This document shows, in pieces, positions 14,284 to 21,404 of a DNA stretch of 22,327 nt (position 1 is its first letter; every line of letters starts with the position of its first letter). The notes below the pieces were generated by a model. That model was not told the origin of the DNA. It made no database searches and worked only from the letters and a program-made list of their open reading frames with translations. The translations under genes and the position numbers were made by a program. This DNA comes from a virus: the IMG/VR virus record IMGVR_UViG_3300030329_000509, positions 14,533 through 36,859 of that record; one strand, given 5' to 3'.

Positions 14284-14748
14284 TTAAAAGGCTAGTGATC
14301 CTATAGAATCATCAGACTCAGCATTGTCTCCAAAATACTCTACTAGGTCAATGATCTGAACATTCTCAAGAATAGGACGACGATACTTACCATCACCATA
14401 TTCGGCGTGGCGCCACTGTACAGCAACCTTAGAACCATTTCCAAGTGCAACGTCAACATCATTCTTGTCTTGATCGACAAGACGCGGCTTACGGTTAGGC
14501 TTACCCCCGGCACCTATCTCCCACTGCTGGAATGTAATCACCGGGTCTTCTGTGAATGACGCACGCCCTGCAGGCTTCATGCCACAGTTATATCCAGCGT
14601 CTTGAAACTTCTGAAACACGTCATCAGATACAGCAAGATTAACAATGTACAGATTCTTTTCTCCGTTGAAGTCAGGCTTAGGAATAGTAACACTACTATA
14701 GTAAGCTACACCTTCAACTACTTGCGGAATACCATTAATGTTTTGCAT
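14284..14748 (-). CDS. single-stranded DNA-binding protein, phage OB-fold type
   Basis: 154 aa. It begins VVEGVAYYSSVTIPKPDFNGEKN and has a core with GNGSKVAVQWRHAEY and VQIIDLVEYFGD, the pattern of T7 gp2.5-like SSBs in marine phages. It ends in an acidic tail closing with SLAF, as expected of an SSB tail that contacts polymerase and helicase. AAGGAG lies about ten bases before the ATG. It is placed two genes ahead of primase-helicase in the promoter-proximal part of the replication operon. Shorter than T7 gp2.5 (232 aa). Confidence 0.82.
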   Translation of the reverse strand: MQNINGIPQVVEGVAYYSSVTIPKPDFNGEKNLYIVNLAVSDDVFQKFQDAGYNCGMKPAGRASFTEDPVITFQQWEIGAGGKPNRKPRLVDQDKNDVDVALGNGSKVAVQWRHAEYGDGKYRRPILENVQIIDLVEYFGDNAESDDSIGSLAF

Positions 14749-20315: not shown

Positions 20316-20606
20316 TTAGAAGTCTTCTACAACAATACTTCCGGTATCTGTTATTCTGTACGATGTAGGTATATCTTCAAGAGTTTCAATGTTTTCGTAG
20401 TTTTCTAGGACTTCATCCGCTGATCCATACTCTGTATAATCGCAGCACAGCCCTACAACATCCAACTCTATCTCTGCACCTATCGCGTCTTCGTAGTCTT
20501 CCAGCATTTCAAACAGCGTCCTCAATCCTGAAAAACTGAATTTATCTTTTATTTGGTCCATTTGGAAGGCCTCCTCAAAGTCGTAAAAGTTAACAGTAGT
20601 CCACAT
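20316..20606 (-). CDS. small conserved acidic protein (96 aa)
   Basis: The pattern FEEAF...FSFSGLRTLFEMLEDYEDAIGAEIELDVVGLCCDYTEY is that of a small acidic protein common in phages and bacteria, function unknown. I keep ATG 20606 because the family begins near FxDFxxAF. An internal ATG (20561) has a better ribosome site (GAGGAGG, 8 bases) and would give 81 aa, so a shorter form may be made. It is the first clear gene of the leftward block. Confidence 0.75.
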   Translation of the reverse strand: MWTTVNFYDFEEAFQMDQIKDKFSFSGLRTLFEMLEDYEDAIGAEIELDVVGLCCDYTEYGSADEVLENYENIETLEDIPTSYRITDTGSIVVEDF

Positions 20607-20830
20607 GATGTGTCTGTCTCTCTGTATGAATTGATGAAGCGAACATTACATCGCGCAGTTAGACTTGGCAAGTACTAAATAATGGAAGAATAGTGGAGAT
20701 TGTATTACTTCCTTTATAGGAAAAAGGAAAGGATGTGGTAACTGGCTGTAACTTGTTGATTGGTAAAGTTTTTAAAAGAATATAGCGTTGCTTTTTTAAA
20801 ACTTTTTAAACGGCGGGAGAAATTGTCAAA

Positions 20831-20973
20831 CCTTTTGGAAAGTTTCCAGAAGATTAATTCCATTTTGGAAAGTATTAACCTTTGGAAAGTTTCCGAAAGA
20901 TTAATTCCATTTTGGAAAGTATTAACCTTTTGGAAAGTTTCCGAAAGATTAATTCCATTTTGGAAAGTATTAA
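20831..20973. repeat. three tandem 47-48 bp repeats (iteron-like)
   Basis: Units 20831-20878 (48), 20879-20925 (47) and 20926-20973 (48) are nearly identical. Each contains two copies of TTTTGGAAAGT (the fourth T is missing at the first site of unit 2), beginning at 20833, 20863, about 20880, 20910, 20928 and 20958, i.e. alternating steps of 30 and 17-18 bases. The first copy in each unit sits in GGAAAGTTTCC, almost a palindrome. Confidence 0.88.
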
Positions 20974-21217
20974 AAATTGCGGAAACTGGTATAAATGTTG
21001 CAGGGCTCTTTTTAAAAAGCCTTGCAAAAGTTGTGCCAGTTTTTTTTCGGTGAGGAGTCTTGACAAAGCTTTTAAAAAGGTGTAGGCTCTGGGGTAGGCA
21101 GGAGGCCATGCCCCCTCCCCCATATATAAATACATTCAAAAACATTTTAACAACTTTTAAAATTGTCCAACCTTCGGGGAACTTTTAGCCGGATCACCTT
21201 TCTAAAAGCTTTTAAAA

Positions 21218-21250
21218 ACTTCTAATATACTTCTAATATACTTCTAAATA
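21218..21250. repeat. three 11-bp repeats (ACTTCTAATAT)
   Basis: Two perfect copies (21218-21228, 21229-21239) and a third starting at 21240 that drifts after ACTTCTAA. Period is one helical turn. Confidence 0.7.
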
Positions 21251-21270
21251 AATATTTATTTAAAAGATTC

Positions 21271-21306
21271 TAAAAACTTTTAAAAACTTTTAAAAACTTT
21301 TAAAAA
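21271..21306. repeat. 10-bp A/T-tract repeats (TAAAAACTTT)
   Basis: Three perfect copies (21271-21300) followed by TAAAAAC. A-tracts recur every 10 bases, the spacing that bends DNA. They lie directly upstream of the minus-strand transcription start. Confidence 0.8.
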
Positions 21307-21330
21307 CACTCTTAGAAGGCGTGTTTTTCT

Positions 21331-21359
21331 ATTATAGGGTTGTTTTCTTATTTTGTCAA
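21331..21359 (-). promoter_or_regulatory. leftward consensus sigma70 promoter
   Basis: On the - strand: TTGACA (21359-21354), 17-base spacer, TATAAT (21336-21331), a perfect match to consensus. Start expected near 21324, giving a long untranslated leader across the repeats before the first clear gene at 20606. A hairpin with arms 21302-21309 and 21321-21328 would sit at the very 5' end. Confidence 0.78.
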
Positions 21360-21375
21360 GAAAAAACTTGACAAA
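21352..21375. promoter_or_regulatory. 9-bp inverted repeat spanning both -35 boxes, probable operator
   Basis: TTTGTCAAG (21352-21360), AAAAAA, CTTGACAAA (21367-21375). The arms contain the -35 box of the leftward and rightward promoters, so one dimeric protein bound here could control both. It could also be only the geometric result of two back-to-back -35 boxes, but the match extends beyond the hexamers. Confidence 0.6.
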
Positions 21376-21396
21376 TCTTAAATTCAGCTATATAAT
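21368..21396 (+). promoter_or_regulatory. rightward consensus sigma70 promoter for terminase genes
   Basis: TTGACA (21368-21373), 17-base spacer, TATAAT (21391-21396), a perfect consensus. The start is expected about 7 bases on, near 21403, while the terminase ATG is at 21405, so the transcript should have almost no leader. Confidence 0.82.
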
Positions 21397-21404
21397 GGGC
21401 AGTC

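Follow-up and report, generated by a model that had tools for sequence, protein, structure and literature searches.

Does a perfect inverted repeat between two back-to-back promoters mark a genetic switch in a phage genome, or only a site from which RNA polymerase leaves in both directions? The repeat lies in a window of 22,327 nucleotides, the whole stretch of DNA analysed here, covering positions 14,533 to 36,859 of IMG/VR record IMGVR_UViG_3300030329_000509. In this record the site is a divergent junction, with a replication block running leftward and terS and the late block running rightward. The leftward genes, all on the minus strand, encode primase/helicase, DNA polymerase A, ribonucleotide reductase (RNR) and ThyX. 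Of the HMO-2011-type core set (TerS, TerL, DNA polymerase, primase/helicase, portal and capsid, in two divergent blocks), the window shows TerS, DNA polymerase A and primase/helicase, and the gene order is that of HTVC115P. TerS homologues in annotated records come from HTVC115P, HTVC103P, HTVC104P, HTVC033P, Roseobacter CRP phages and HMO-2011. The source phage thus appears to be a marine HMO-2011-type phage, related to SAR11-infecting phages; its own host is a presumed one.

Table 1. Features at and around the divergent junction, in window coordinates.
Feature	Position	Strand	Details
Leftward promoter PL	21331-21359	-	-35 TTGACA 21359-21354, 17-bp spacer, -10 TATAAT 21336-21331; 12/12 consensus
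Rightward promoter PR	21368-21396	+	-35 TTGACA 21368-21373, 17-bp spacer, -10 TATAAT 21391-21396; 12/12 consensus
9-bp inverted arms (two facing extended -35 boxes)	21352-21375		TTTGTCAAG 21352-21360, A6 21361-21366, CTTGACAAA 21367-21375
8-bp gap between -35 boxes	21360-21367		GAAAAAAC; A-tract in the position of a putative UP element shared by both promoters
terS, terminase small subunit, 138 aa	21405-21821	+	phrog_2538, E 6.8e-08; start codon 8 nt after -10 box
Long noncoding leader of leftward transcript	20607-21330	-	Reaches first leftward ORF 20316-20606; 724 nt from -10 box
Conserved 58-bp leader element	21091-21148	-	AAAATGTTTTTGAATG-TATTTATATAT-GGGGGAGGGGG-CATGGCCTCCTGCCTACCCC; tract 21111-21121

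A promoter pair kept at the junction

Chance does not account for the promoter pair. Both strands carry TTGACA and TATAAT with equal 17-bp spacing, as the initial annotation had recorded. A scan of the whole 36,859-base record for TTGACA-N15-19-TATAAT returned these two matches only, and the same pattern read backwards returned none. Under a first-order Markov model, 0.008 perfect promoters are expected in the window and about 3e-8 pairs no more than 40 bp apart, which excludes a chance origin of the pair. C precedes TTGACA on both strands, and in their boxes and the ~17 bp between them both halves conform at the sequence level to the sigma70-type consensus of alphaproteobacteria. Transcription is predicted to start at ~21324 leftward and at ~21402-21404 rightward.

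Perfect pairs of this kind recur among phages: with a gap of 0-30 bp they are present in at least 120 IMG/VR stretches. The pair is not unique to the source phage, and the rarity first claimed for it has to be qualified. Among the 72 distinct perfect pairs in the matches listed, gaps of 23-28 bp are the most frequent, and 93 of the 144 arms have a C before TTGACA.

The pair is also conserved together with terS. Searching IMG/VR with TerS gave 64 loci, which with isolates made 67 scored sites, and a near-perfect divergent pair lies upstream of terS in 65 of them. Pooling all fetched loci yielded 215 in which a divergent pair is followed by a TerS homologue. Because single-linkage clustering of TerS merged most loci, we grouped these greedily at 75% identity into 30 clusters, some still containing mixed gap lengths, and compared their 60 promoter arms. 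TTGACA is present in 59/60 arms and the 17-bp spacer in 56/60; the -10 box reads TATAAT in 48, TATACT in 10 and TACAAT in 2. The flanking bases are kept as well, with C before TTGACA in 56/60 arms and A after it in 57/60. Retention across 215 loci and 30 TerS clusters supports the initial proposal that strong sigma70-type promoters occupy an early/late junction.

HTVC115P, isolated on SAR11 strain HTCC7211, shares the two-block layout, with a divergent junction adjoining terS. The back-to-back pair is present there and its rightward promoter is perfect, whereas in Roseobacter phages and HMO-2011 terS lies within an operon instead. Further perfect promoters occur within the late block of HTVC115P (MN698247.1, 18832-18860 and 50898-50926 (-)), with GGTGTATAAT common to them and the terS promoter.

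What the inverted repeat is

The inverted repeat is exact in the window but is not kept as a unit. Its arms around A6 are exact reverse complements enclosing the -35 boxes, as first described, and the next outer pair is a T/T mismatch. At homologous sites anything from 7 to 58 bp separates the facing -35 boxes, so the "repeat" amounts to two facing CTTGACAAA boxes rather than a fixed operator. In the nearest relatives (L001-L005) the gap is 7 bp and the outermost base pair is broken (TGTCAAT versus TGTCAAG). The expectation that related phages would conserve the repeat is therefore borne out for the promoters and fails for the repeat itself. Judged by these comparisons, the conserved unit is each extended -35 box and not a dyad at fixed spacing, and two identical extended -35 boxes set face to face give rise to the inverted repeat as a side effect.

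This variation makes a shared repressor very unlikely. The initial annotation read the site as a switch, in which one phage or host protein on the inverted repeat would shut both promoters at once. The perfect 9-bp dyad in the window and the very strong retention of the extended box in pairs would suit such an operator, and a repressor binding CTTGACAAA as a monomer could tolerate variable spacing. Against it, homologues with gaps so diverse lack the lambda-type hallmark of a dyad operator that overlaps both promoters and holds its half-sites at a fixed spacing, and the broken outermost pair of the nearest relatives also speaks against one protein on one dyad. The identical extended -35 box also turns up at non-paired promoter matches; in the fetched loci, C precedes the box in 61% of them against a 19% background. 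The published alphaproteobacterial sigma70 consensus, CTTGAC-N17-CTATAT (PMC2873474), agrees with the leading C of the phage arms. Among the part of the window proteins scanned, Pfam matches named no DNA-binding repressor. An additional DNA-binding contact would nevertheless fit the A's after the -35 box, which are kept more strongly in pairs (80% and 77%) than in single promoters (49% and 46%), though the singles include chance coding matches.

The gap itself does not resemble an operator either. Gaps of relatives are 78% A+T, and their dyad symmetry is weak (0.40 versus 0.33 in shuffles), arising from a T-rich left half and an A-rich right half. Because of these halves, an A-tract stands just upstream of each -35 box as seen from that promoter's own side. 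In E. coli promoters, the UP element is located just upstream of the -35 box. The A/T-rich gap could thus serve both promoters as an UP element.

Competition between polymerases is an alternative that we consider unlikely as the conserved property of the site. With -35 boxes 8 bp apart, two holoenzymes might exclude each other, so that one direction is read at a time and the two blocks are coupled. In the window and its nearest relatives, ~80 bp separate the predicted starts, and polymerases can interfere at E. coli bidirectional promoters, whose starts are 10-23 bp apart (PMC12825309). The spacing in the window, however, far exceeds these examples, and the predicted starts are 86-132 bp apart in 26 of the 30 cluster representatives. 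Since most homologous gaps are longer, exclusion would not be a conserved property, although competition is possible in short-gap members.

A predicted leaderless terS and a long leftward leader

The rightward promoter is tied to the terS start codon. At 99 of 132 unique homologous sites an ATG begins 6-8 nt past the rightward -10 box, compared with 10 of 132 at the matching offsets past the leftward one. If transcription starts ~7 nt past the -10 box, the terS mRNA is predicted to be leaderless, probably with essentially no 5' leader.

The leftward transcript, by comparison, would begin with a long leader (Table 1). In relatives, the first ORF with a Shine-Dalgarno-like site lies a median of 733 nt from the leftward -10 box. 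Nothing in the leader convinces as a coding gene; ORF 20714-21145 drew no Pfam match. An Rfam scan of the window found two tRNAs only and no known RNA family at the leader.

Within the leader lies a conserved element of the general form AAAATGTATANGATT-TATATATA-(G or C tract)-GGCCNCCTGCC. In relatives it reads AAAATGTATANGATT-N-TATATATA, a 10-18 nt G- or C-tract and then GGCCNCCTGCCNACCC, and its distance downstream of the leftward -10 box is ~70-250 nt. An IMG/VR scan by the left box alone gave, among the matches listed, 113 exact matches with enough sequence. A near-perfect divergent pair lies upstream in 83 of these listed matches and is absent from 30, part of which resemble chance coding matches. 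The first rightward ORFs recovered at paired element loci fall into a single cluster with the window TerS.

The element behaves as a DNA feature rather than an RNA feature. On neither strand does its segment fold better than shuffles (mean z -0.36 and 0.00). Pairing is not conserved either, since the tract varies among 61 non-redundant copies, 36 of them G-rich, 20 C-rich and 5 mixed; even the close relatives L014/L020 and L012/L018 differ, with GGGGGAGGGGG versus CCCCCACCCCC. A conserved RNA structure was rejected on both counts. Given its link with terS, the element may be a packaging site or a replication origin.

The leader holds several other features. A 48-bp tandem repeat in three copies (95% matches) occupies 20829-20973, with TTTGGAAAGTTTCC-like inverted motifs. 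A/T-rich tandem repeats of TTTTAAAAAC units lie just downstream of the leftward start, at 21200-21307; the 87-nt leader RNA there is more stably folded than shuffles (z -3.8), which repeats of this type would lead one to expect. An 8-bp perfect inverted repeat, AAAAACAC/GTGTTTTT, followed by A/T, sits right at the predicted leftward start (21302-21328, minus strand). Stronger terminator-like hairpins are visible by eye 40-95 nt into the leftward leader of HTVC115P (L068), L061 and L062, and are possible attenuators. At ~21188-21205 the plus strand reads GCCGGATCACCTTTCTAA, close to a 16S rRNA 3' end. The leftward RNA there has an extended Shine-Dalgarno-like stretch, TTAGAAAGGTGATCC, with no start codon nearby, and relatives have GGTGAGC-like versions.

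What is conserved here might mainly be a packaging or replication locus, formed by the leader element and terS, with the early and late promoters merely flanking it. This is a real possibility, if a somewhat doubtful one. In its favor, 61 non-redundant relatives retain the element, which is linked to TerS, and cumulative GC skew reaches a minimum near the junction, although gene direction switches at the same place. On the other side, the ends of metagenome contigs are scattered, with no pile-up at the tract, which leaves fixed physical DNA ends there unsupported, though assemblies can bridge cos. A search of HMO-2011 and Roseobacter phages, in which terS sits inside an operon, also gave no occurrence of the element as such beyond control rates. 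More speculatively, and with rather low confidence, the promoter pair, leaderless terS and G/C-tract element could form one control-and-packaging module of SAR11-type phages. The element would then be a TerS-recognised packaging start or a replication origin, its tract of 11-12 nt flipping between G-rich and C-rich even among close relatives, like a fast-evolving cohesive or recognition sequence.

A probable bidirectional promoter among known systems

We favor, at a probability of roughly 0.7, a constitutive bidirectional promoter for host sigma70 RNA polymerase at an HMO-2011-type divergent junction. Host sigma70 polymerase would read leftward into the replication block and rightward into the terminase/late block. 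Each half would act as an extended alphaproteobacterial promoter, CTTGACAAA-N15-TATAAT with 17 bp between hexamers, and the A/T-rich gap as their shared UP element. Rightward transcription would begin on or next to the terS ATG, giving leaderless translation, and leftward transcription would make a ~700-nt leader ahead of the first early gene. No repressor would act at the pair itself. If reading is constitutive, temporal control of the late block must come from elsewhere. It would be unusual for a late block to be fired early in a purely constitutive way, and some regulation is probable: attenuation, a polymerase-binding protein or gene dosage after replication are candidates that would leave no trace in the hexamers.

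According to the literature, pelagiphages rank among the ocean's most abundant viruses, and we found no description of promoters in HMO-2011-type phages in the literature searched. A compact, conserved bidirectional promoter gives exact predicted starts for both gene blocks. It also predicts a leaderless terminase mRNA and points to the neighboring element as a packaging or replication candidate. The promoter pair is real, well conserved, functional-looking and of a known kind; the novel part is its linkage with a predicted leaderless terS and the G/C-tract element. The locus further exemplifies how a striking perfect inverted repeat can arise merely from two good promoters facing each other.

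Phage lambda offers a parallel in PR/PRM, likewise back-to-back sigma70 promoters at a divergent operon junction, with starts ~80 bp apart as in the window. In lambda, three CI/Cro operators overlap the promoters and PRM is weak, whereas both window promoters are consensus, the group keeps no fixed-spacing operator and the window proteins scanned yielded no repressor. Phage phi29 (PMC3100819) likewise places early and late promoters (A2c/A2b-A3) close together at an early/late boundary in a lytic phage that uses host RNA polymerase. In phi29 the change from early to late is brought about by the phage's own p4 and p6 proteins; the window's late promoter differs in its full consensus -35 box, and on sequence grounds would need no activator. 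E. coli bidirectional promoters (PMC12825309) also transcribe divergently from one site with sigma70. Their starts are only 10-23 bp apart and their elements are shared through pseudo-symmetry, while the phage group has two complete, separate promoters with 7-58 bp from -35 to -35. With the alphaproteobacterial sigma70 promoter (PMC2873474) the phage site has the leading C and the 17-bp spacing in common, but relative to CTTGAC-N17-CTATAT, and in a host that is itself presumed, its -10 box is a full TATAAT and its -35 box extends to CTTGACAAA.
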